DNA of 64,000 bases from Rosa chinensis (Eukaryota; Streptophyta; Magnoliopsida; Rosales; Rosaceae). Each line of letters opens with the position of its first letter. Position 1 is the first letter of the stretch. The notes beneath the pieces were generated by a model. That model worked only from the letters and a program-made list of their open reading frames with translations. It was not told the origin of the DNA and did no database searches. Location: positions 68,862,819-68,926,818 of the forward strand of contig NC_037094.1 in NCBI RefSeq assembly GCF_002994745.2, given 5' to 3'. The position numbers and the translations under genes are program-made. Below are positions 41,647 to 64,000 of the stretch, piece by piece.

Positions 41647-42719
41647 TTAATCAAAATCGCCAGTTTCTGGGTCTTGATCCTTATAGTCTTCCACCCTTAG
41701 ATCGAGATCTCCATCTTGATCTTCTTGTTCCATGTAATTTGCTTCCCTTGCTTCACGATACGTCTTGTATGCGTTTGCAACATTCTGGGGTGCTGTACAT
41801 GCTTTGGCCCAATGTTCAGTTGATCCACATCGAAAACAAACATCATTATGGTCAGGCTCCCTTGATCGAGGCGCCTTTGGGGCGCGATTTGGACGACCTA
41901 TGCTCTTGGTGGCGTTACTACCATGGTCGGAGGCTCCGCCTCTCTCTCTCTTCACACGTTGACCTCCACGGTTCCGTGCACGCCTCTCTTGGCGATTTCC
42001 TTCCTCTTTAGGGCGAACATATGGACCAGAATGTCCAGAATTGTCCCTACTCTTAGGGTTTCGCTCCTTGCGTCCTCCATTAGGGGCGCGACCATTGTTA
42101 GACTCCGGAATAGGCTTAGTTCCCACGGGTCTAGCATTATAGTTCTTCACAAGAATATTGTCGTGCTTTTCAGCTACGTTCATGGCGCCAATGAGCTCAT
42201 GAAACCTTGTGATACGTCCTGCATTTACATCAATCCGATAATTCTTTGAAATCATCAGTGCAGAGATGGGGAAGGTAGAGAGAGTCTTCTCGATTAACAT
42301 CGTATCAGTTATGGCTTGGCCACAAAACTCCATCAGAGACTTGATACGAAGAGCTTCTGAGTTATAATCAAGCACAGACTTGAAATCACAAAAGCGGAGG
42401 CTATGCCATCGCGCTTCTAAATCAGGAAGCAGGGAGTCACGAAAGTTGCCAAATCGCTGCTCAAGTTCTACCCATAGCTTTCTTGGGTCTTCCTCATTGA
42501 GGTATTCATTTTGGAGCACGTCATTCATGTGCCTTGTCATGAGAATTATGGCTTTAGCTTGTTTTGCTTCGAAAGCAGTAGCTTGCTCAATGGAGAGCAC
42601 GTTCTGACCAGGCTCTTGGATGGCTCCCAGAAGTCCATCAGCCTTAAGATGTTGGCGCACATCTCGGACCCACCAGTTGTCTCTAGTGGAACGAAGTTCA
42701 ACTTGTTCAGGTTACTCAT
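41647..42719 (-). pseudogene. Copia gag with CCHC zinc knuckle, shifted near its start
   Basis: From 42660 down to 41647 a 337-codon frame encodes the UBN2/gag core and a basic Arg/Gly-rich region. It then has a zinc knuckle CFRCGSTEHWAKAC (C-x2-C-x4-H-x4-C) and an acidic tail. The expected N-terminus MSNLNKLNFVPLETTG is present at 42719 but in another frame. The two frames meet at about 42672, just before WVRDVRQHLK, where a few codons appear to be missing. Gag therefore has a small deletion with a frameshift near residue 17. The rest of the gag frame is clean. Confidence 0.85.
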
Positions 42720-47681: not shown

Positions 47682-50600
47682 GGAAAAAGACTAAGAAGTA
47701 AGAACCAAATTGGTCTCCTAAGAAGTTTAGTTACAACAAGACCTAGTCTCCTCTGCTAGGGTTTACTTTCTAGGGTTCTAGAAAGCAAGATCTGATCTAC
47801 CATGGATATGGAGATACTTAGTTGGAATTGCCGGGGGATCTGCAATGCCACGACAAAGAGGGCGCTGAAGGATTTAGTTTCCCATAATCATCCTCAAATC
47901 ATTTTTCTTTGTGAGACGAAGATCAGTACTCTTGCTGACTTCCGTAAAATGCATCGGGCTGTTGGATTTCTACACTCAAAGGAGGTGTTGCTGGGATATC
48001 TACGGGCATGCACGAGTGCGTCATCTAGCTCCCAGTGATTCTAACCATGTTCCGATACTCTTACAAGCTATCTCTGTTCCTTTGGTCAAAAGACCAAGAG
48101 TGCACCAGTTCAAATTTGAAGCTTACTGGCTTCAACATAATGATTGTGATGAGGTTGTGAAGCAAGTGTGGACGACAGACGTGACTGGAAGTCTTATGTA
48201 CTGTGCAGCCAAGAAGATTGAATTCACAAGGATACAGCTTGATGATTGGCAGAAGATAGCTCTCAAGACTAGGCAACAACAGATGCTGGGGGTGCGGGCT
48301 CGTCTTGAGGAGTTACTAGATGTTCTTGTGTCGGTGGACGTGCAGAATGAAAAGAAAGAGCTGATGAGCAAATTGCGGAGTCTTCTTTCACAAGAAGAAT
48401 CCTTCTGGAAGCAATGGTACAAAGTGACATGGTTGAAGGAGGGGGATAGAAACACAAGCTTTTTTCATCGAAAGGCTGCCAATAGAAAGAGGAAAAACTT
48501 CATTCATGGTCTTTATGACGAAAATGGGAATTGGTGTGATAAGGACGCAGGTCTGGAAAGAGTTATCTCAACTTATTTTTGAAAGATGTTTACTGCTTCC
48601 AGTATAGATTTTGAGGCAGTGAATGACACTTTAGCAGCTATACAACCGTGTGTAACACAGGCAATGAATGTACAATTGTGTGCAACTTGTACACAAGAGG
48701 GGGTGCAGAATGCTTTGTTTCAAATGTATCCCACTAAATCCCTGGGACCAGATGGTATGCCTCCACTCTTTTTCCAACATTATTGGGACACTATTGGTGC
48801 AGACATTACTGAAGCAGTTCAGAGTTTTCTCCATTCAGGTCAACTTCTTCGTGAAATTAATTTTACTCATATCTGCTTAATTCCCAAAGTCGATAATCCG
48901 GAAAATATGTTGGAGTTGAGGCCTATTGTGTTATGCAATGTTATTTACAAGATTTGCTTTAAAGTAATAGCCAACAGATTAAAGTTGATCTTGCCTGAGG
49001 TGATTTCTCCTTATCAAAGTGCTTTTGTTCCGGGGAGATTGATTACTGACAATATCCTTGTGGCCAATGAAACTGCTTACTTTGTTCATAACAAGAGGGA
49101 GGGTAATGAAGGTTTTATGACTTTGAAGTTGGATCTAAGCAAGGCTTATGATAGCATGGAATGGAGCTTTTTGAAAAAAGTTCTAGACAGATTTGGTTTT
49201 GCTTTTTCATGGATTGAGTTGGTGATGCAATGTATTAGTACCGTCCTATATTCATTTTTAGTCCATGGAAAGCCTCGGGGGCTTGTGATTCCTAGTAGAG
49301 GATTGAGACAAGGGGATCCTTTGTCTCCATATTTATTCTTAATTGGAGCAGAAGGTTTCTCTGGTTTATTGAGTCAGAAACAAGAGTTAGGTTTGCTTTA
49401 AGGTATTAAGGTCTGTGATGGAGGCCCTTCTGTCAATCATCTTTTATTCTCTAACGATAGTATGTTATATGCTCATACTTCTTTGGAAGATTGTTACCAG
49501 ATTCAGGAAGTCATTGAAACCTACGGGAGGGCCTTAAGACAATTGGTTAACTTTGACAAAAGTTCAGTGGTATTCAATAAAAATGTGGACTTTGCTATGC
49601 TGCAAGAAGAAATATCCAGTTTGTTGGGAGTAGAAATTGTTGACTCCCATTAAAAATACTTGGGATTACCTACTTATGTAGGGAGAAAGAAAACTGCAAC
49701 CTTTAAGTACATTAAGGAAAATTTGGCTATGAAGCTTTCTAATTGGCAAGGGAAGTTATTTAGTGGTGCTGGAAAGGACATTTTGATCAGGGTAGTAGCT
49801 CAAGCGTTACCTACCTATGCTATGAGTGTCTTCCAATTGACAAAGAGTTTCTGTGAAGATTTGGAACAGCTTTGTGCTCGGTTTTGGTGGGGGTCTATAA
49901 TGGATAAACGAAAGATTCTTTGGAAAACATGGAATGCGTTGTGTAATCCGAAAGAAGAAGGGGGATTAGGGTTTTGTAGCTTGGCTAGCTTTAATTCGGC
50001 GATGCTTGCTAAACAAGCTTGGAGGGTTATTTCTAACCCTAATTCCTTGGTTGCTTGAATGTTTAAGGCAAAATATTACCTTACAAGCTCATTTTGGTTG
50101 GCAGATAATCATTCTTTTCCTTCATATTCTTGGAGCAGTATTTTCTCTACAAGGGATCTATTGAAGCAAAGTACATATTGGCAGATTGGTTCTGGGATAG
50201 AGGTCAATATTTGGAATGATAATTGGTTGCCAAGTTTGCCTAGTGGTCGGCCTCATGAGAATGCAGCAGGTCTTGCTAAAATGGCTCAGGTTTCTGATTT
50301 GCGCACTACTAATGGTGCTTGGAATTATGATATGATTGTTAGATTGTTTTCTTCAGCAGAAGTGGAGGCCATTTTAAGTGTGCCTCTAAGTTTGAGAAGG
50401 GCTGATGATAGATTGGTCAGGAAATTAGAACGGGATGGGAAATATTCTGTTAAAACGGCGTACAGGTTCTCCTTCTCTCATTCTCCTGCTTGTGTACCCT
50501 TTGAGCTATCGGTTAACATTGATTTTGGAAAAAATTGTGGAAAGTGAAGATTCCTAGTTCGGCAAAGATTCACAAGTGGAAAGTGTGCCATAATATTCTT

Positions 50601-52633: not shown

Positions 52634-54569
52634 ATGGCCGAACAAAGGGGAAACACACGTCCAGTGGCCGGACAAGAGGGAGATCAAAGTGAAGATACCC
52701 AAGATAAAAGGAGATGGACGGATGAGGAAGATGTTCAATTATGCAAGTCTTGGAAAGTTGTAAGCCGATGTCCGGCTGTGGGCACAAATCAGAAAAAACT
52801 CGAATTATGGTTGCGCGTGAAGCGACACTTCGACGCAAATTGGACCAAGAGCCGATCAGCCCAATCTTTGCAGAGAAGGTGGAAAATTTTGAAGATTGAA
52901 CTCTTTGAGTGACATTGTGCATTAAGACAAGCGAAAAATTAGTACAAGAGCGGTTCGAATGCGGTTGATGAGGTATGTATTTGTTGATACATTATAGTAA
53001 AATATTACATGATAAATAATGTAGTAATTATAATATCGTTTTAATTGTAATAATTATTTTTCGTTATAATTAAAATAATTAGTTGATAAAAATGTTGTAA
53101 TTACCCCTCTATTTATATTTGTACTTATTGAGTTTTATTGTAAAACGGTGAGATACATTTTTATTAAAATTATGAACTTTATATTTTTTGATAAATCATT
53201 TAATTTGTTGATACATTATAGTAAAATATGTCTTGATAAATAATGTAGTAATTATAATATCGTTTTAATTGTAATAATTTTTTTTCGTTATAATTAAAAT
53301 AATTAGTTGATAAATAATGATGTAATTACAACGATATTTAATTTGTACTTATTTATTTTTATTGTAAAATGGTGAGATACTTTCTTATTAAAATTATGAC
53401 CTTTATATTTGTACTTACTGATTTTTAACGCAAAACGGTGAGATAATTAAATCATTTAAAATTATGAGCTTTATAATAGATGACCCTTCATAATAGTGTT
53501 TATATTTGTACTAATTGAATTTTTTATTTTTTATTTTTTAATTACGTAGCAAGATGAAGCACATAAATTGTGGCATGCCGGGATGAAGAGAAAAACTGGG
53601 AAGGACAAAAGACACAATTTTCAGAGCTTTGATAGTTACGCTGTTGTGGAGGGGTTTGCACAATTTAAAGACATCCCTAGCCATACATCCGGAGGACCAT
53701 CAAATGTAGGAAGTCAACATACGCACACACAACCAATTGCTGAAAATTCCCCCATCAACTTGGACATGGATGTAGATGAGGTAATTGTAGGTCAAACTGT
53801 AGATCCTAATGTGAGGCCTCAAGGAAGGAAGGCTGCAAAAGAAGCAATACGGAAAGGAAAGAAGGCAGCGAAAGATCAAAGTCCTTTGTCAAGCAGTCTG
53901 GAGAGTATAGCGAACAACCAAATAGAGGCAACCAAGGGCAAGAAAAAACTTGATGACGAATTCGCTCGAAGTCTCCAAGAGGAAGAGAAAAGAGCATGTA
54001 TCCTCTTGCAAATCGAAATACGAAAAGAGCAACTCCTATTTCAAGAAATGCAAGATCGAATAAAAGAGAGGGAAGAGCGAAATAAAGAGAGGGAAGAGCG
54101 TATTATGGAGATTGATACAAGTAAAATGACGCCAAATAAAAAGCGTTATTGGTCAAGAAAACAAAAGAACATAGCGGAGAAAGAAGATCTTGACGAGCAG
54201 CCGCCACCTTCTATGGGTGGATACTATCCGCAACCCAATTTTGGTGGTGCATTCCCACAACCAAATTTTGGTGGTGCATACCCACAACCTCCTTACCCCG
54301 GTGCATACCCACAACCACCTTACCCTGATGCATTCCCACAACCTCCTTTAACCGGTGGATTCCCACCACCTCCCTTCATCGGTGGATTCCCAAAACCCCC
54401 TTACCCCGGTGGATACTATCCGCAACCACCTTACCCCGGGGGATATCCTACACAACCACAATTTTCACATTTCCCTACGGGTGATTCCACCAACCCTAAC
54501 CCTAATGATGAGCCATCAAACACAAATTGGATTTCTAGAGAGGATGATGATTATGATTTGAATAATTAG
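52634..54569 (+). pseudogene. PIF/Harbinger ORF1 (Myb/SANT-like), two in-frame stops
   Basis: ORF1 proteins bind DNA and help the transposase into the nucleus. Exon 1 is 52634-52972 and exon 2 is 53550-54569, joined in phase (...AVDE|QDEAHKLWHAG). Exon 1 has the trihelix/SANT-like block KRRWTDEEDVQLCKSWKVVS. Exon 2 carries the NAM-associated-type region with a charged coiled coil (about residues 225-315), and then a Pro/Gly/Tyr-rich repeat region (PQPPYPG units). Exon 1 is interrupted by TGA at 52910 (where Trp is expected before HCALRQAK) and TAG at 52939. Each is one transition away from a sense codon (TGG, CAG). Apart from those two stops the frame is clean. Confidence 0.85.
52980..53450. 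repeat. Tandem repeat inside the ORF1 intron
   Basis: A block of about 220 bp (TTGATACATTATAGTAAAAT...TAATATCGTTTTAATTGTAA...AAAATAATTAGTTGATAAA...TTGTACTTATT...GGTGAGATAC) is present twice in full, with a third partial copy near 53395-53440. It is AT-rich and enlarges the intron. Confidence 0.8.
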
Positions 54570-54885: not shown

Positions 54886-56226
54886 CTAGATCTCCATGTT
54901 GCATTGAACGTTCCAGAAATGCTCTATCAGATCTTCTTGAAGGTTTGAGTGACTGTTTGCACATCTAATGGCATCGTATCGATCCATGAATCCGTTGAAG
55001 TAATAACCATCTCTACCAACAGGATCGAAGTCATCACCAGTGGGTCCTTCCCAAACCTGGGCCAACCTGGGCCTCATATTGTTATCCTCTTCTTCATCGG
55101 ACTCCAAATCCTCATCGCTGTCATCTGGTCTTTCATCCTCGATTATCATGTTGTGTAATATAATACAAGTCAGCATGATGCATCGAAGGTCTTCTCTTTC
55201 CCAGCCACGAGCCGCTCCTCGAACAATACTAAAGCGCGACTGTAAAATGCCGAAACATCTTTCGACATCTTTCCTGTACCCCTCTTGAGCCTGGGAAAAC
55301 TTCAGATCCTTGGGTCGTGTAGGCCTTGGAATTGATTTTACGAAAGTCGCCCATTGCGGATAGATACCATTAGCGAGATAGTACCCTAAATTGTGAATCC
55401 TGTTATTCGCTTGAAATTGGATCCGAGGGGCTCGACCAGCAGTGAGCTCGTCAAACAACGGGGACTTAGCAAGGACGTTGAGGTCGTTGCATGATCCAGG
55501 CATTCCAAAGAAGGCATGCCATATCCATGTGTCATAAGAAGCGACTGCTTCGAGGATGATAGTTGGCACACGTTTTCGACCGCTGTATTCTCCAACCCAA
55601 CCTGTTGGGCAATTCTTCCATTGCCAGTGCATGCAGTCGATGCTTCCAATCATCCCAGGAAAGCCCCTTCTCTCAGCTTTGGTGAGAAGTCTTCTGAGGT
55701 CGGCCGGATTGGGAGCCCGAAGGTATTCTGCCGAGTACAGATTAACGATTCCTCTTGTAAATCGTTTCAGAGCCTCAATGGAGGTAGATTTTGCCATCCG
55801 ACAATACTCAGCACATTGATCTGCCCCGGCACCATAAGCAAGCATTCTTAAGGAACATGTCAGCTTCTGCTGGGGAAGTAGTCCGACTTTGCCTGCAGCA
55901 TCTGATTTCTGGACAAAGTACGGGTCGCTACCACAAAGATCACTGGAGATGCGGTTGAACACATTATGACTCATCCTGTACCTTGTCCGGAATATCTCTT
56001 CACTGAAAACTGGACGCTCCACAAAGTAATCTCCCATCATGTTTTTCCCTCTTGATTCCCTAAATCGCTCCTCATTCGGTGAACGCCCCGATTGAGAACC
56101 CCGTCGTCGTGATCCGGAGGAAGCTTCAGCTTCAGCGACTGCTGCTACCACAAGAGCATTAGTCGTACACAGCTCTTCAAGATCTTCATCTCGAGATTGT
56201 CGATACTTAGCCCACAATCTCTTCAT
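54886..56226 (-). CDS. PIF/Harbinger DDE transposase, open frame
   Basis: This is an RNase H-fold transposase (DDE_Tnp_4 type) for cut-and-paste of Harbinger elements. From the ATG at 56226 (MKRLWAKYRQSRDEDLEEL) there are 446 codons to the stop with no break. A helix-rich N-terminal region includes YRMSHNVFNRI and LRMLAYGAGADQ. The catalytic triad is visible: Asp197 in MIGSIDCMHWQW, Asp248 in GSCNDLNVLAKSP, and Glu322 in VERCFGILQSRF. The acidic C-terminus (DDSDEDLESDEEEDN) is usual. The frame extends upstream without a clear better ATG, so I chose 56226. Length and motifs fit an intact enzyme, but expression is not shown. Confidence 0.92.
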   Translation of the reverse strand: MKRLWAKYRQSRDEDLEELCTTNALVVAAVAEAEASSGSRRRGSQSGRSPNEERFRESRGKNMMGDYFVERPVFSEEIFRTRYRMSHNVFNRISSDLCGSDPYFVQKSDAAGKVGLLPQQKLTCSLRMLAYGAGADQCAEYCRMAKSTSIEALKRFTRGIVNLYSAEYLRAPNPADLRRLLTKAERRGFPGMIGSIDCMHWQWKNCPTGWVGEYSGRKRVPTIILEAVASYDTWIWHAFFGMPGSCNDLNVLAKSPLFDELTAGRAPRIQFQANNRIHNLGYYLANGIYPQWATFVKSIPRPTRPKDLKFSQAQEGYRKDVERCFGILQSRFSIVRGAARGWEREDLRCIMLTCIILHNMIIEDERPDDSDEDLESDEEEDNNMRPRLAQVWEGPTGDDFDPVGRDGYYFNGFMDRYDAIRCANSHSNLQEDLIEHFWNVQCNMEI

Positions 56227-56479
56227 TGAAATGAGGGAAGGAGAGGAAATGTGTTGGATCTGGAGAACATGAAAACGAATGAGATTTGTGAATATCAGCT
56301 TGTGAGGAATGGTGTGCTGCCTCTTGCTCAATTTATTTACAATTTTCACATAAAACGTGATCAGACTTCGAGGACACGTGTCCACTTCTGGTTCGACGTA
56401 ATCTGATCTGAAATTTTAGATAAGATTACATCAACAATAACCATTAGATTGAATAGTATGCAAATGATCTGGTCCGTTC

Positions 56480-56983: not shown

Positions 56984-57667
56984 GAGTGGTTCTAGTTGGA
57001 CCTCCAAATTTGATATTTGGACCTCTAATTTTTTTCAATTATTAATAGATTTTGTCAAGTCATATGAAAAGACAAATAAGGACAAAGTTAGAAAAATGAA
57101 AAAAAAAAAAAAAAACTCTTCTTACCTTCCCAAAATATAACATTTAATTAAATTTTTTTTCCTGAAATTTCCTTATACTTTCATATAGTTTTAAAATTTA
57201 CTTAAAACAATTAAGTAAAAATAATAATTTTTATACATGGCCTACAATTAATATAAAAGTAAATTCAAAACAATCTGATTTGAAATTTCCTTAAATTATA
57301 TTCATTGAATATTATGATATTGTTATTACTCGATCTTTCAACCCAAAACCCATGAAATCATTCTTTTAGCAAATTCAAAGGAATTCCGGGAACATATCAA
57401 GATCGAGAACCAACCCTCTGATTAATTTTGGTGGAGGAGAGATCTACTCATAAGAGAACAATATCATGTGATTTTAATTCATTCTTTTTCTCATGGTTGA
57501 ATATAGAGATAAAAAGTAGAGTAAGAGATTATTTATCTCATGTTCAAATGTGTTTTGGTAAAAATAAGGAGATCCACTTAGCTTTTCAAGTACTATAAAA
57601 AGTAAATTAGATGTATACTAAATATAGGAGGTCCAAATAGTAAATTTGGAGGTCTAACTTAAACCAC
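56984..57667. mobile_element. Mutator-type MITE, 684 bp
   Basis: The inverted ends GAGTGGTTCTAGTTGGACCT on the left and, on the other strand, GGGTGGTTTAAGTTAGACCT on the right continue to match for over 30 bp. The exact 9-bp duplication AAGAGCAAA flanks it (56975-56983 and 57668-57676). The core is AT-rich and non-coding. Its left TSD overlaps the TAA duplication of the neighbouring Harbinger element. Confidence 0.9.
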
Positions 57668-57723
57668 CCAAGAGCAAATTAAAGATAAAGATAATTTAGG
57701 CTCACCATGACATAAGTTTTTCC
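57668..57723. repeat. Tandem duplication, copy 2 (right part)
   Basis: AGAGCAAATTAAAGAT...AAGATAATTTAGGCTCAC, then ATGACATAAGTTTTTCCA, matches the join of 47656-47681 with 51558-51597. This is the continuation of copy 2 beyond the two inserted DNA transposons. Confidence 0.8.
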
Positions 57724-57749
57724 ACGTTTTTCAAAGTCATGAAAACCAA

Positions 57750-57802
57750 AAATTACTATTTAGAAGTCTAACTAGAACCACCAAAAAGCAAATTAAAGAT
57801 AA
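57750..57802. repeat. Extra right end of the Mutator-type MITE family
   Basis: TTACTATTTAGAAGTCTAAC followed by TAGAACCACC resembles the right end of the MITE at 56984-57667. The AAGCAAATTAAAGATAA after it resembles the flank of that MITE, so this is probably a small local duplication of MITE end plus flank. Confidence 0.6.
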
Positions 57803-58068
57803 GGGTTAATGCTCATACACCCCAAATTTGGGAAAATACTTCTCATACACCCCAGTGTATTATTTTTGTTCCCTTTTACACAACTTTTTCTCACTTTCTT
57901 TCCTACCTACCTGTCTTTTCAAAATCCCTACCATTAGTACCCCTTTGTTGTTTTGGTTTGTTAGAATCTGCATCTGCAAATGTCTCTTTCATAAATTTAT
58001 ATATGTCGTTTTAGAAACGTGGTGGGCCCATCAGAGTTTGTTTCATTTGAATATATGTATGAAGCTGA
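57803..58068. other. Junction region before the viral sequence
   Basis: Contains CTCATACACCCC twice (57811 and 57843) and T/C-rich DNA. No gene was recognised. The boundary between plant DNA and viral sequence should lie here or slightly later. Confidence 0.35.
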
Positions 58069-58365
58069 CAGTCATCCTCTAATTCGAAAGGTAAACGGTA
58101 CAATTTACTATTCATAATTTCAATTGTAGACAGACTTGAGCTTGTTGCTATATGCAAACATACTACTAAAGAACTGCAGAAAGAGAGAGAAAAACTGAGA
58201 AAATTAAAAACCTATCGGGACAGCCTTGATAGAGAATCTCCCAATTACTGGGATATTATTTATAGACTTCAGACTAGAATCTATAAGATAGAAGAAGAGA
58301 TAGAAAATCTCCTATATGTTCTGGAAGAGGAACAAAAACCTCTGAATTATTTGAGCATTGGTTAG
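58069..58365 (+). pseudogene. Open frame ending just before the viral primer-binding site
   Basis: An open frame of about 98 codons without an ATG ends at TAG 58363-58365. From about 58125 it is coil-like and charged (KELQKEREKLRKLKTYRD, then IEEEIENLLYVLEEEQ). A+G-rich codon use is like that of the viral polyprotein. The stop is only 13 bases upstream of the primer-binding site. It could be the C-terminal end of another viral reading frame from a circular or tandem genome, or an unrelated coding fragment. I do not recognise a domain. Confidence 0.45.
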
Positions 58366-58378
58366 ATCCGCACCTCAC

Positions 58379-58390
58379 TGGTATCAGAGC
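58379..58390 (+). other. Pararetroviral tRNA-Met primer-binding site
   Basis: TGGTATCAGAGC is the perfect complement of the plant initiator tRNA-Met 3' end used by caulimovirids to start minus-strand DNA. It lies 41-53 bases upstream of the polyprotein ATG. Confidence 0.85.
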
Positions 58391-58422
58391 TTGTAAAAGG
58401 CTCAAAGGAGAACCCCTCCTTA

Positions 58423-61400
58423 ATGGGGACAATGTCAGAATTGTTACTAGAGAAAATAAATTCTCTACTAAAAGCTTCTGATGAGAAATATCAGAAGATG
58501 TTACTAGAAATATCTAGATGTCAGTCGACACTAGAAACAATACCTGCTATAATCCACCAATTAGAAAGATTGGAAAACAAACTGGATTATATCAAAGATC
58601 TTCCAAAAACGGAAGAAGAAAGACTGACAAGTGTCAGTAGAAAAATCAAAGAACAGCAAAAAACGCTGGAAACTATACTGAAGGACAAGAAATTGCCTAC
58701 AGTAAAAAAGAAGACTAATGGGTTCAAACCATTAGAGAAACCAGACTCAAATCGTGTTCCTAACATGATTTTTCTGGAACCATCTACTAGTCAGACTAGT
58801 ATCCGGTATGAAAATCCGGAGAATACAGAAAAAAGAGAACTGAAGATGTTAAGCATCTTTGGAAAAAAGAAAGGAGTTCAACTCCTAAATTCTGAAGAAT
58901 TTGAATACAATGAAATCGAGCATGAGGTAAAAAACGCCTCAATTCCAAAGCTAGATTTCAAACAGATCTACCGAAGGGGAACATTTGACCTGATGGACAG
59001 CCATCATTTCAAAATACTTGAATTCACAACCCCCTCAACAACAGGAGAAACAGATCTCTTGATGATCACCCCTGCTGAAGTTGCCAGAGCACAAGCAAAG
59101 CAATACCAATTTATGCACATTGGAGCAGTCCAAGTCGGCATAAAACTATTGGCAAGAGAAGGCATCAACTGTTCAGTCCTATGTGTCCTGCAAGACAACA
59201 GACTGACAGACTTCCAAGCTAGTCTGTTTGGGACTCTAGAAGCATCACTATGCAACCAGGTAGCATATTTCAACTGCTTCCCCAACTTTTCAACCAGCTT
59301 GAAAGATGCAGCCCACTGCCTCAGACTGAGAGTCAAGACAGACGGGATCTCAATGAAAGAAGAAATGCAAGAATTGGCAATAGTATACAGAGTATACTAC
59401 AAACTGATGAGCACCACAGTGGAACCAAAGACAAGGATCTCCAACATCCCTGGTCTCACTACTGGATTCCTCACCAACCAGAAGAACCATTCACAGCAGA
59501 TTCACAAGGTTGCTTGGAATGAAGTAACTTTTCCTCTTGAATGGAAACTGTCCGGTCCAAAAAAGCTGCCGGAAAGAGCAAAAGCAAGGATCTACGAGAG
59601 TAGACGCACTGGAGAAATCAGCCTCAACTTTGAAGATCACAGGAAAAGTGATGTATGTCCTGAAAACATCAGGATAAACAGCAGTCTTCTGAGAAGAAGC
59701 TACAGCACCAGAGAAGCCGGTGTCAGTGGTACAAAACCCACTATTGACGAACCAATATCAGAAGAAGATCTGGAAGCTGATCTATGCAGACCAGTCCATA
59801 TGCTCAGAGCTGAGAAGCTCTATGATCTTTACAAAGAAGCTGAGAATTGTGAAAGTCCTGAACGATTAGAAAAACTAATCGAGGAAATGAAAGAATTCAA
59901 ATACAGAAAGACAAGAAAAGTCTTTCCTTACCAAGATGTTGAAATGGAAGAAGGAGGAAGCTCCAGAACTTTCATCAAAAAAGAAACAAGGGAAATGAAA
60001 CTCCCAGTTCAGAAAGCCCCCACGGGTAAAAAAGGAGAAAGAAATTCTCAAAGATTTGTCCCAGAGGACAATCTACCCAGAGTTCCTATTACCAATTACG
60101 GAATCTGGTTGAATCTAGACAAGAGTCTAGACAAAAGAAAAACTATTGACCAATGGGTAGACAGCCTGATGATGGCCTCTGCACTTACCCTTGGCAAATT
60201 TGAAGCACCAGATTTGCAGGTGTACTATGAAACTACTCTCACTGGAGTGGCAAAAAAGTACTACCTATCTTTCAAGGAAACTACCAGAGGAAGAGACTGG
60301 CTTGAAGAGATAAAAAATTCAAAGTCTCCGTATGATTTTGCAGTACCCCTGTACGATCAATTCTGTGGAGATCTCTCAAATCTGAGTGAGAAAGCCAAAG
60401 AAACGGCAAAGTCGAATATCTATGCTCTCAAGATCTGTGACATGAGATATTTCGAAGAATACCTGAATGAATTTCAGGAATATTACTGTACAATTGGTGA
60501 ACTAGAGAATACTGATCTAGTTAATCTGTTGCACAGAAAGCTCCCTGAACCATGGAGAACAGCTGTGAGAGAAAGCATAGCTGAAAAACCAATTGAACGA
60601 TTTTCAGTTGGAGGAATTGCCGACAGAATCCGGCAACTACTGAAGGAGCAATGCAAAGCCAATCTTAGAGCTAAGATGGCCAAGAAGCAACTCAAAGGAG
60701 TTGAAAATTTCTGTTACGGAATACTGGATATGCCCACAAACTGGGGATGTCATGAATCCAAATTCCACAGAAAGAAGAAAAAAGAAAAATATTACTCGAA
60801 AAAATTCAAAAAGAGTAATCAGAGAAAGAATTGGAGATTCAAGAAAAGCTCCAATTACAAGAAGCAACAGGATGAAGATCCAAAAAAGAAATTCTTCAAG
60901 AAAAAGAAGAATACTCAGCAGCATAAACAACCTAGCAAGAAAGCTTGCAGATGTTGGTTGTGTAAAGCTGAAGGGCACTATGCCAATGAATGCCCGGAAA
61001 AGGGTAACAGATCTACTAAAGCTCTCTTTGAAGAATATGAGCAAATAGTAGAAGTAGCAAACATGAAAGGCTACGAAATAGCCTATTCTGATGATGAAGA
61101 TGACGACAGGTCAGTCTATTCTGCCTGGTCCGAAGAAGAAGAAAGTTCATCAGAAGAGTCTGAGATAGATTCTGAAGTAGAGTACTTCGAATCCAGACAA
61201 ATGAACGTGTTGAAAGTCAAAAACTGGGAAGAAAGCAAGACAGAATCCTTCATGTCTTCTTATCAGGTCAACCCTGGTTCATTCGTCTGTGACTACTGCT
61301 TATGTCACGAGAAGAATGGTCTCCCTATGTTCTGCGAAGAGTCTAAGAAGACGTATCACAAAGAATGCTTCATAGCTGAAGCAAGAAGAAAAACCAAGAA

Positions 61401-64000
61401 TGGTCTTGTCAGCCAATGGGTTGAGCAAGAATATGAAGAGTATTTCGCTGAGAAAAAAGCGAAAGAAGTTGAAACTCTGTTCCAGGAAACCATGGAACAA
61501 ACAAAGAATGTTGCAGCAACTGTAGTCCAAGAAACGACTATGGAACAACCATCTTCCTCAGAAATAAAGGAAGAAATCATCGGTGAAAAAACAATCGATG
61601 AAGATATTGAACTGGTTGAAATACCAGAAAATGTCCATCTCTTAGAAAGACAAGAGATAGCTGCGGATACTGGTACATGGGATCTACTTGGCCAACCTTC
61701 CGGCAAGTTTGACTACAAAGTCAGATATGATCCTCCCCCCTGGTTCAGTAATCCAGACAGCAAGAAGATAACTCCTACAGATTGGGATGATGATGACAAA
61801 TCACCCACTCAGGAAAATGTTCCAGAAGAATGTAAACCGTTCATTCCAACGGAACAAGCTCAAGAAAATGAGCCTCACCAATCGAAAGCCGTCTCTACAA
61901 GTAGATACAGCAACTACATAGAGATCGGACTCAAGTTCCCTGATCACAGGAAATATCATCTACATGCTTTTGTAGATAATGGATCAGGCTTTACTGTTGC
62001 AAAGAGATTTGCAATTCCAGAAGAACTCTGGAACGAAGACAAGAAAAAGTCAGCTACTGGTGTTACATTCGATGGAAGCCATCTCACCATGAAGAAAGTA
62101 GCAAAAAATGTTCATATCACCATTGGTGGAGGAACATTTATCATCCAGAATGTTTGGCAATCTGAAGGCCAAGGATCTGATTTCTTGTTGGGCAATGATT
62201 TTATTCTCCAACAACGATTCATTCAGGATGAAGAAGCGATAGGCTTCAGAAAAGGAGAACGGGTGTTCTGGGCTGACCGCCTCACACAGGCATACAGTGT
62301 GGCCGGTCCCGGTTTTACTACTCAGCATCAGAGATCGCAACAGAATAGTGGTGATCTTACCCCCTACAAACCCAAATTTCAACCCATACTCCAAATCAAA
62401 CAACAAGAAGAACTGCTTGTTGAAGAATCTTCAGAAGAAGAAGAAGAAGCTAGTGAAGATGAAGAAGCTAGTTTCATCCATGAGCACAACCTCAAGCACT
62501 TTCAGAACAAGCTTGAGTCTCAACAAACTCCCACTCTTGACAAAATCAAGAAACTACTCGAGCAGAATGTGGATACAAATCCTCAGAAGTTTTGGGAAAA
62601 AGACCCAGTGGTCTGTGAATTAAGATTGCATGACATGAATGCTATCTGCCATGTCAAAGCCATTCCTCAGTACAAAGAGGAAGATCAAAAAGAATTCAGA
62701 AGTGATATTGAAGATCTCCTGAAGAAGAGATTAATTCAACCTTCCACTAGCCCTCATCATGCTCCAGCATTCTACGTGAGAAATCATGCAGAGAATCTAA
62801 GAGGAAAAGCTAGAATGGTTATTGACTATAGAGATGTCAATAAGAAGACTGTCAAAGACGGATATCAGATCGCTCAAGTCAGAGTCCTGATCAACCAGCT
62901 CAGAGGAGCTAAAGTCTTTTCGAAATTCGATGCAAAGTCGGGTTTCTGGCAGGTCAGGATGCATCCTGAGAGTGTACCTCTCACTGCATTTGGAACACCA
63001 CAAGGTCATTACGAGTGGCTGGTAATGCCTTTTGGTCTCAAACAAGCTCCCTCAATCTTTCAAAGAAAGATGGACAACATCTTCAAGCATGTAGCGGAGT
63101 TCTGCGTCGTCTATATAGATGACATCCTGGTCTTCTCCAAAAACAGAGAAGAACACATGAAGCACCTCTACGAGGTAGCAAAGCTGATAGTCCAGCATGG
63201 AATTATCCTAGGTGAGAAGAAAATCTTCTTTATCCTCGATGAAGTTGATTTCCTAGGAATAAACATCAAGAATGGAGTCATAAAGCTCCAACCTCACATC
63301 CTTGAAAAGATCTGGAAGTTCCCAGACAAAATTCCTGATGCTAAGAGTCTAGAGAGATTCCTTGGTGTCATAAATTATGGGAGAGATTTCATCCCTAGAA
63401 TCTCAGGATTAACAGCAATATTATCCCCCAAGACAAGTTCCAAAAGGAAATGGAACTTCACAGAAGACGATGAAAAGATCGTGAAGCAGATAAAAAACCT
63501 CTGCAAGAACCTCCCTCCTCTTCAACAACCAGAAGAGAATGATGAAATTATCCTCCAGACAGATGCGAGTGATAATTACTGGTCCGGTGTTGTTCTGGCG
63601 AGAGCGCCTGGAACTAACATTGAAAAGATCTGCAAATTTTGTAGTGGCAAGTTCAGCCCTGCAGAACTGAATTATCCCACAGGGGAAAAAGAGATTTTAG
63701 CTGTCAAGAAAACAATTTTAAATTCTCCAGCTTATCTGAGAAAAACCTTTACTGTCCGCACCGATTGTGCTAGAGTAAAGAATTTTAAAAATTTTAAACT
63801 TGACAAAGCTGCTGATAGAGGAAGATTAGCCAACTGGCAATTGTTTCTTAACCAATATGATTACACTGTTGAATTAATTGCAGGAAACAAGAACTATCTT
63901 CCAGACGCATTGACCAGAGAACTGGCAATGTTCAGCCAAAGAGAAGACGACGAAGGTCGTAATCCCAGAAGCAGAAGGACTGGGAAAGAACAGGAATCTG
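58423..64000 (+). CDS. Endogenous caulimovirid polyprotein (MP-CP-PR-RT-RH), partial at window end
   Basis: This is an integrated plant pararetrovirus (Caulimoviridae) frame, open from ATG 58423 or 58432 to the window edge, over 1,850 codons without a stop. Numbering uses 58432 as residue 1. Residues 1-100 are coiled-coil-like. About 195-345 look like the movement protein (LLMITPAEVARAQ, QVAYFNCFPNFSTSLKD). About 555-800 resemble the coat-protein core. A basic Lys-rich tract leads to the knuckle C841-x2-C844-x4-H849-x4-C854. A second Cys/His cluster lies at 953-979. The aspartic protease has the motif DNGS at 1182-1185. RT carries YIDD at 1561-1564. RNase H acidic residues are at 1711, 1778 and 1825. 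Movement protein to RNase H in one frame suggests a petuvirus- or florendovirus-like genome, which I cannot resolve. The end lies outside the window. Confidence 0.9.
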   Translation, partial: MGTMSELLLEKINSLLKASDEKYQKMLLEISRCQSTLETIPAIIHQLERLENKLDYIKDLPKTEEERLTSVSRKIKEQQKTLETILKDKKLPTVKKKTNGFKPLEKPDSNRVPNMIFLEPSTSQTSIRYENPENTEKRELKMLSIFGKKKGVQLLNSEEFEYNEIEHEVKNASIPKLDFKQIYRRGTFDLMDSHHFKILEFTTPSTTGETDLLMITPAEVARAQAKQYQFMHIGAVQVGIKLLAREGINCSVLCVLQDNRLTDFQASLFGTLEASLCNQVAYFNCFPNFSTSLKDAAHCLRLRVKTDGISMKEEMQELAIVYRVYYKLMSTTVEPKTRISNIPGLTTGFLTNQKNHSQQIHKVAWNEVTFPLEWKLSGPKKLPERAKARIYESRRTGEISLNFEDHRKSDVCPENIRINSSLLRRSYSTREAGVSGTKPTIDEPISEEDLEADLCRPVHMLRAEKLYDLYKEAENCESPERLEKLIEEMKEFKYRKTRKVFPYQDVEMEEGGSSRTFIKKETREMKLPVQKAPTGKKGERNSQRFVPEDNLPRVPITNYGIWLNLDKSLDKRKTIDQWVDSLMMASALTLGKFEAPDLQVYYETTLTGVAKKYYLSFKETTRGRDWLEEIKNSKSPYDFAVPLYDQFCGDLSNLSEKAKETAKSNIYALKICDMRYFEEYLNEFQEYYCTIGELENTDLVNLLHRKLPEPWRTAVRESIAEKPIERFSVGGIADRIRQLLKEQCKANLRAKMAKKQLKGVENFCYGILDMPTNWGCHESKFHRKKKKEKYYSKKFKKSNQRKNWRFKKSSNYKKQQDEDPKKKFFKKKKNTQQHKQPSKKACRCWLCKAEGHYANECPEKGNRSTKALFEEYEQIVEVANMKGYEIAYSDDEDDDRSVYSAWSEEEESSSEESEIDSEVEYFESRQMNVLKVKNWEESKTESFMSSYQVNPGSFVCDYCLCHEKNGLPMFCEESKKTYHKECFIAEARRKTKNGLVSQWVEQEYEEYFAEKKAKEVETLFQETMEQTKNVAATVVQETTMEQPSSSEIKEEIIGEKTIDEDIELVEIPENVHLLERQEIAADTGTWDLLGQPSGKFDYKVRYDPPPWFSNPDSKKITPTDWDDDDKSPTQENVPEECKPFIPTEQAQENEPHQSKAVSTSRYSNYIEIGLKFPDHRKYHLHAFVDNGSGFTVAKRFAIPEELWNEDKKKSATGVTFDGSHLTMKKVAKNVHITIGGGTFIIQNVWQSEGQGSDFLLGNDFILQQRFIQDEEAIGFRKGERVFWADRLTQAYSVAGPGFTTQHQRSQQNSGDLTPYKPKFQPILQIKQQEELLVEESSEEEEEASEDEEASFIHEHNLKHFQNKLESQQTPTLDKIKKLLEQNVDTNPQKFWEKDPVVCELRLHDMNAICHVKAIPQYKEEDQKEFRSDIEDLLKKRLIQPSTSPHHAPAFYVRNHAENLRGKARMVIDYRDVNKKTVKDGYQIAQVRVLINQLRGAKVFSKFDAKSGFWQVRMHPESVPLTAFGTPQGHYEWLVMPFGLKQAPSIFQRKMDNIFKHVAEFCVVYIDDILVFSKNREEHMKHLYEVAKLIVQHGIILGEKKIFFILDEVDFLGINIKNGVIKLQPHILEKIWKFPDKIPDAKSLERFLGVINYGRDFIPRISGLTAILSPKTSSKRKWNFTEDDEKIVKQIKNLCKNLPPLQQPEENDEIILQTDASDNYWSGVVLARAPGTNIEKICKFCSGKFSPAELNYPTGEKEILAVKKTILNSPAYLRKTFTVRTDCARVKNFKNFKLDKAADRGRLANWQLFLNQYDYTVELIAGNKNYLPDALTRELAMFSQREDDEGRNPRSRRTGKEQES

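Follow-up and report, generated by a model that had tools for sequence, protein, structure and literature searches.

Why does an endogenous pararetrovirus in the rose genome keep a single reading frame open over its whole length, and how did it enter the chromosome? The window analysed here is a stretch of 64,000 nucleotides of Rosa chinensis (contig NC_037094.1, positions 68,862,819 to 68,926,818), and at its right edge lies an element of 8,394 bp (57803-66196; positions above 64000 continue the numbering of the window along its contig) that is an endogenous caulimovirid of a Rosaceae group, probably the one named 'Zendovirus'. Nearly all endogenous caulimovirids have been described as fragmented, and a coordinated integration process was considered unlikely (PMC4241990). 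Given its fixed ends and a 9-bp duplication agreeing at eight of nine bases, the window copy looks unlike a randomly integrated sequence. We consider it on balance probable that a replicating pararetrovirus, presumably a Zendovirus, enters the chromosomes by a transposition-type step, for which a Mutator-type transposase supplied in trans by the host is the most likely enzyme.

The ends were compared in 61 copies, namely 20 hand-picked ones, 40 more (every second of the remaining 92) and the window copy, using end motifs derived from the first 20 copies and matched at up to five mismatches. Both ends were present, with differing flanks, in 58 of the 61; one copy was masked on the right (c02), and two had no left end in the stretch examined (d09, d24). 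An exact 9-bp target-site duplication was found in 52 of the 58 two-ended copies (17 of 20 in the first set and 35 of 38 among the copies taken after the motifs had been defined), compared with 17 of 3,306 pairings in a control that matched each left flank with the right flanks of other copies. Exact duplications of 8 bp and 10 bp occurred in six and four of the 58, respectively. The copies without an exact 9-bp duplication were the window copy (8/9), c13 with an exact 8-bp duplication, and c12, d23, d27 and d31 with none. The duplicated bases are 94% A+T versus 61% in the window. In the window copy, the left duplication (57794-57802) corresponds at eight of nine bases to the right one at 66197-66205, and the left terminus (57803-57832, plus strand) is of the type seen in 40 of the 58 two-ended copies, with eight of its first 10 bases agreeing with the right end when the latter is reverse-complemented. 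A composition change-point at 58162 had been considered as left border and was superseded by the shared end at 57803; a 70-bp flanking repeat was rejected as a long terminal repeat (LTR) or long duplication, as it lies outside the ends and adjoins a part of the left flank that is locally duplicated in tandem.

The two-ended copies fall into three end-families, F1 with 40 members, F2 with 10 and F3 with eight, two of which have a different left end. Because all three families yield 9 bp despite their differing termini, the duplication is independent of any single terminal sequence. Compared in register, the inverted repeats match at 8/10 positions in F1 and F2 and at 6-7/10 in the F3 types; a match of 8/10 occurs by chance in 0.0009 of position pairs. 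In each of four copies tested, the 60-nt leader arms outperformed mononucleotide shuffles in pairing, at most one shuffle in 60 being as good. With 120-nt arms, no shuffle of 60 was as good in c16 and in c20, 3/60 were in c01 (marginal) and 27/60 in the window copy, which thus did not exceed its shuffles; clear pairing of the longer arms was confined to F3 types.

A whole-genome search returned at least 113 copies of the reverse transcriptase (RT)-RNase H region at 96-100% amino-acid identity on contigs C1-C7; copies were ranked by protein similarity, and all counts of 113 refer to the best 113 of 5,808 candidates. The open frame, measured from stop to stop, reaches at least 2,250 aa in 40 of these. 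The original prediction had assumed that most integrated copies are broken, which is only partly true here, and had read the open frame as recent integration or unusual preservation. Recency is supported, but the element is not an unusually preserved single provirus, being one of at least 113 near-identical copies; with both ends and the full frame of 2,269 aa it is the full-length endogenous provirus that had been suspected. Open frames of length 1166 or 1167 occur in 12 of the 113 listed copies, and the two inspected members of this class (c13 and c14) have a nearly identical pattern of stops in the RT frame, 5' of the protease. Also seen were two pairs of neighbouring copies on the same strand (C3:38952643 and 38960148, 7.5 kb apart; C7:27597386 and 27606614, 9.2 kb apart), both with open frames of 1166 and 1476; these are tandem copies or the result of segmental duplication.

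The duplications themselves date the insertions. One mismatch was counted in 477 bases across the 53 copies with duplications that agree at 8 or 9 of the 9 positions. At substitution rates of 7e-9 or 2e-9 per site per year, this corresponds to a mean age of 0.15 or 0.5 million years (Myr), the upper limits being 0.8 and 2.9 Myr, an estimate that is lowered by the omission of the other five copies. A separate neutral argument, based on the open frame of the window copy and assumed rates, gives half-lives of 0.12-0.34 million generations.

The copies appear to have been under selection while they multiplied. Among 28 RT-RNase H sequences, 27 of them grouped and one unclassified, the ratio of nonsynonymous to synonymous substitutions (dN/dS) was 0.07 within F1, 0.05 within F2 and 0.02 within F3, and it remained low between families (0.05 for F1-F2, 0.04 for F1-F3 or F2-F3, with a dS of 0.27 for F1-F3). 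A stop codon in the RT-RNase H region was present in two of the 113 listed copies versus about 68 expected under neutrality, when half of the within-F1 dS is taken as the branch of each copy. This deficit is informative despite the ranking by protein similarity, because a stop costs little score.

The position of the ends is best understood from the layout of the linear copy, which runs from the left end through 576 nt, the tRNA-Met primer-binding site (PBS; 58379-58390, plus strand, an exact match, TGGTATCAGAGC), the open reading frame (ORF), a TATATAA motif at 65463 and about 700 nt to the right end. The 576 nt (57803-58378, plus strand) are the 3' part of the viral leader, the 5' part of which lies at the opposite end of the element; they include an open stretch of 96 codons without ATG (58075-58362, plus strand), which is coiled-coil-like and had no Pfam match above the cut-off. 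In the circular form, the two leader parts would adjoin, and the leader would measure about 1.28 kb from the RNA start, assumed to lie 33 nt past the TATA box, to the PBS. Since the ends lie inside the viral leader, each copy is equivalent to a circular genome opened at one fixed point. The likely promoter, sought beyond position 64000 at the suggestion of the original prediction and marked by this TATA box, stands 3' of the ORF in the linear copy and points out of the element, so that the linear copy cannot use it to transcribe its own ORF into pregenomic RNA. Folding predictions for the left part of the leader gave z scores of -2.7 (58060-58440) and -1.2 (57700-58440) and were set aside.

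F1 and F2 share a nearly identical body and carry different leaders. The F2 copy c01 is 97.8-99.5% identical to the F1 body in ten 400-nt windows, and the leader parts of four F2 copies reach mostly 49-85% in 100-nt windows (four unoriented minus-strand rows near 50% identity were dropped from the comparison). At 25-nt resolution, three F2 copies show 92-100% identity from the PBS onward; upstream of it, identity is 84-100% in the first 75 nt and declines gradually to 68% by 58203. On the right side they show 88-100% up to about 65498 and then 44-84% across the following 100 nt. Three F1 copies are also low at 65499-65548 (16-76%), where the alignments contain indels. In retroviral biology, minus-strand strong-stop DNA copies the interval between the RNA start and the PBS. 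Our preferred explanation is an exchange of leaders through template switching, gene conversion or faster evolution of the leader being the alternatives.

Taken together, these data would fit the following course of events. A caulimovirid would replicate through its own reverse transcriptase, and its circular DNA would be opened at a single point of the leader that is flanked by short imperfect inverted repeats. A Mutator-type transposase of the host, most likely, would then act in trans and insert this DNA into AT-rich targets, cutting them with a 9-bp stagger. Excision could return the circle and restore the promoter to its place upstream of the ORF, and template switching would exchange the leaders. 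We infer a Mutator-type enzyme from the duplication length of 9 bp and the inverted ends, a combination that among plant transposons suits this superfamily. Duplications of 7-12 bp are given for Mutator-like elements (PMC10741241).

Several observations weigh against this reading. The terminal inverted repeats are short and imperfect, and free local alignment of the ends found nothing beyond chance in F1 and F2 and was borderline in F3, where the score of 24 compares with a highest shuffle score of 26. Among the 52 exact duplications, five (c03, d02, d05, d30, d35) are runs of A or T and carry little information. No transposase match was obtained in the polyprotein pieces scanned, and the other open stretches of the element within the window do not exceed 135 aa. 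Ranking of the copies by protein similarity biases dN downward. The change between F1 and F2 lacks a sharp border on either side, since it sets in gradually upstream of the PBS and is obscured by indels near the putative RNA start. Finally, defective copies may be mobilised or copied with help in trans, because 12 of the 113 listed copies share the 1166/1167 frames and an internally deleted derivative of 2,008 bp (C5:19076323-19078330), possibly a non-autonomous form, retains both ends together with the final portion of the ORF and is flanked by an exact 9-bp duplication (TTAGCTAAA).

A further-reaching version of this scheme assumes a true transposition phase on the chromosome, in which the leader repeats would serve as transposon ends for Mutator-type insertion, excision would yield a transcribable circle, and template switching would swap ends along with leaders. 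We regard it as a tentative proposal, possible rather than probable. Somewhat more doubtful is a single capture event, in which a Mutator-like transposon would have taken up an entire caulimovirid genome in the manner of a Pack-MULE (a gene-carrying Mutator-like element) and would since have spread a cargo whose viral genes are not needed. The 9-bp duplications, the GGG...CCC ends, the 2,008-bp derivative that retains its termini and the frame lengths common to 12 copies all speak for such a capture. However, the dN/dS values are low, even allowing for the ranking bias, nearly identical bodies are combined with different leaders and ends, and the ends lie inside the leader and not outside the virus. 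In addition, a 300-bp left-end query gave 349 candidates, and in 37 of the best 40 a listed RT lay at the expected distance; the remaining three, one of which is the 2,008-bp derivative, also run into viral leader, so that no virus-free element was found among these 40. Diverged virus-free elements may exist beyond this sample, a point that weighs against our main reading.

It is unlikely, though still worth weighing, that the virus brings its own recombinase, the 9-bp staggered insertion being made by a conserved domain of about 430 aa that follows RNase H. More than 400 residues are added C-terminal of RNase H in the window copy and its relatives; the domain is conserved between Rosa and Fragaria, with a distant counterpart in Cryptomeria, and it occupies the usual place of an integrase, which in Ty3 elements follows RNase H. 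However, no Pfam family matched this region up to an E-value of 1, and the similarity that exists points to the ORF VI (TAV) region of caulimoviruses: blastp found two caulimovirus-like proteins, from lettuce and Centaurea (E 4e-7), and hhalign against ORF VI gave an E-value of 1.5e-5 at a probability of 80% (6e-5 and 65% without the Cryptomeria row), with a badnavirus control at 0.34. We treat this likeness as a lead. Structure models of the related rose protein P0003 and of its C-terminal part, with predicted local distance difference test (pLDDT) scores of 31 and 41, were too poor to be usable for this question, and no fold search was based on them.

An ordinary endogenous caulimovirid inserted through break repair by end joining, its near-identical copies reflecting one recent episode, is very improbable. 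The AT-rich targets and the TA repeats that often flank known insertions (PMC10377300) agree with such an origin, but end joining is not expected to produce fixed ends (58/61) or 9-bp duplications (52/58). A Ty3-type LTR retrotransposon, suggested by the tRNA-Met site and the RT-RNase H order and named by the original prediction as the finding that would overturn it if flanking LTRs existed, can practically be dismissed, since blastn found no direct repeat joining the two ends, which speaks against LTRs, movement, coat and A3 protease domains are present, no integrase match was obtained in the pieces scanned, and the named database matches are caulimovirids or plant gene models.

The element shares 9-bp duplications with Mutator-like elements and Pack-MULEs (PMC10741241), and its ends resemble their terminal inverted repeats to a limited extent. 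It differs from them in that it carries the complete genome of a virus, apparently under selection, in that a transposase gene was not found in the pieces scanned, and in that its repeats are short and placed inside a viral leader, whereas those of Mutator-like elements are usually long. Teratorn, a fusion of a piggyBac transposon and a herpesvirus in fish, is likewise a virus with the insertion mode of a DNA transposon (PMC10175614), but it is 180 kb long and unites both elements, while in the rose only the ends are seen, on a plant pararetrovirus. Our literature search, which was limited to open-licence PMC full texts, found no pararetrovirus described as having Mutator-type ends or duplications. 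The entry of pararetroviruses into chromosomes has been called speculative, the proposals being break repair, machinery borrowed from LTR elements and, in one case, the hijacking of an integrase derived from a transposon (PMC10377300). Fixed ends and 9-bp duplications at more than 50 sites are a direct and testable signature of a transposase-like step. If the proposed entry is true, the rose element would be a plant counterpart of the virus-transposon hybrids of fish and could explain why more than 100 near-identical copies of one virus group exist in rose. It also suggests that endogenous caulimovirids should be annotated by their ends and duplications and not by RT alone.

The coding capacity is that of a caulimovirid. 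As originally predicted from an open frame of more than 1,850 codons, the polyprotein ORF (58423-63999, plus strand) encodes 1,859 aa within the window and is open at its edge; in the genome beyond, the stop that had been expected past 64000 follows at 65230 and completes 2,269 aa. The other two plus-strand frames of this region contain 103 and 141 stops, and composition alone predicts a stop at about 6.5% of codons. The perfect tRNA-Met site was confirmed, its chance expectation being 0.14 matches per window at up to one mismatch. Pfam searches of the polyprotein in pieces bore out the domains noted earlier and added a zinc knuckle, in the following order and all on the plus strand: movement protein (PF01107, 59038-59418), caulimovirus coat protein (PF22909, 60397-60720), a CCHC zinc knuckle (60952-60993) whose score of 18.3 bits is under the Pfam cut-off of 20.8 and which has the CX2CX4HX4C motif, A3 aspartic protease (PF02160, 61909-62340), RT (RVT_1, PF00078, 62800-63267) with YIDD at 63112-63123, and RNase H (PF17917, 63538-63858) with its acidic residues D, E and D kept. 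These domains, together with the tRNA-Met PBS at the genome start, are those of Caulimoviridae, and the length of 8,394 bp is inside the range of 7.1-9.8 kb for genomes of this family (PMC7660458). The protease triplet at 61975-61983 is D-N-G and not D-T/S-G, while the 68 readable database matches have DTG in 55 and DSG in nine cases. A lesion peculiar to the window copy was ruled out, as D-N-G occurs in seven of eight Rosa copies inspected (the eighth was unreadable) and in P0013, another caulimovirid-like protein; being common to the Rosa copies, it is a lineage trait.

The search against Caulimoviridae proposed by the original prediction agreed with its reading in both domains and named matches. 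An RT-RNase H query of 610 residues (62170-63999, taking in the end of the protease) was closest, among the best 120 of 968 matches, to P0003 of R. chinensis (95% over half of the query); over its full length it matched three gene models from Fragaria x ananassa (1,651-1,653 aa) at 64%. In a tree of 58 hand-chosen caulimovirid-like rows, from which two chosen rows (Rubus, F. vesca) had been removed for short coverage and in which neither Ty3, petunia vein clearing virus (PVCV) nor a Zendovirus-labelled row was included, the window copy is sister to P0003 (support 100/95) within a clade of 10 rows, nine of them from Rosaceae (100/98). The RT placement proposed earlier therefore groups the element with Rosaceae caulimovirid-like proteins and has no bearing on Ty3. 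P0118 of Cryptomeria japonica joins the Rosaceae clade on a long branch (97/95) and carries a similar C-terminal domain at about 26% identity; it is possibly operational taxonomic unit (OTU) 15 of Cupressaceae in PMC13308828. Searches of viral_contigs and phage sequences returned no relative.

Published work assigns Rosaceae copies of this kind to 'Zendovirus', counting 768 sequences in a single cluster and reporting 10 identical RTs from R. chinensis (PMC9794742); this group lies within clade A and is exemplified by Fragaria vesca virus (PMC5766536). Rosaceae hosts, Fragaria kin in the RT tree and recent near-identical copies link the rose element to that OTU, whereas the published accounts, as far as the cited parts extend, cover RT sequences and genome counts and give no fixed ends, 9-bp duplications or leader differences (PMC5766536, PMC9794742, PMC11359110). 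With Petuvirus and Florendovirus, of which the latter has uninterrupted copies in Prunus, Malus and Glycine, the element shares a single large polyprotein of movement protein, coat protein, protease, RT and RNase H and the tRNA-Met site (PMC4241990, PMC5902531, PMC7660458). Identity with Petuvirus appears unlikely and that with Florendovirus was rejected, on the tree, which lacks a PVCV row, and on ORF content: the Citrus rows, petuvirus-like according to PMC9794742, fall in a different clade, no plus-strand open stretch of 80 codons corresponding to the second florendovirus ORF (45-58 kDa) was found between 65230 and the right end, and the rose polyprotein has the C-terminal extension weakly similar to ORF VI (TAV), a homologue of which was not detected by BLAST in petu- or florendoviruses according to the cited part of a review (PMC5902531).

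Other putative mobile sequences were noted in the window. A minus-strand ORF of 499 aa (54886-56385) with Plant_tran and DDE_Tnp_4 domains, which we take to be a PIF/Harbinger-type transposase, lies near a NAM-associated ORF at 53568-54569, and the two perhaps form one Harbinger-like element. A Copia-type gag with CCHC (41647-42660, minus strand) and a separate RT ORF (48586-49401, plus strand) are further retroelement remains. Directly to the left of the viral element, 56986-57802 contains a local tandem duplication, its 45-nt copies being spaced by 114 bp, as well as 24-48 nt inverted repeats, so the element may have landed in sequence resembling a miniature inverted-repeat transposable element.

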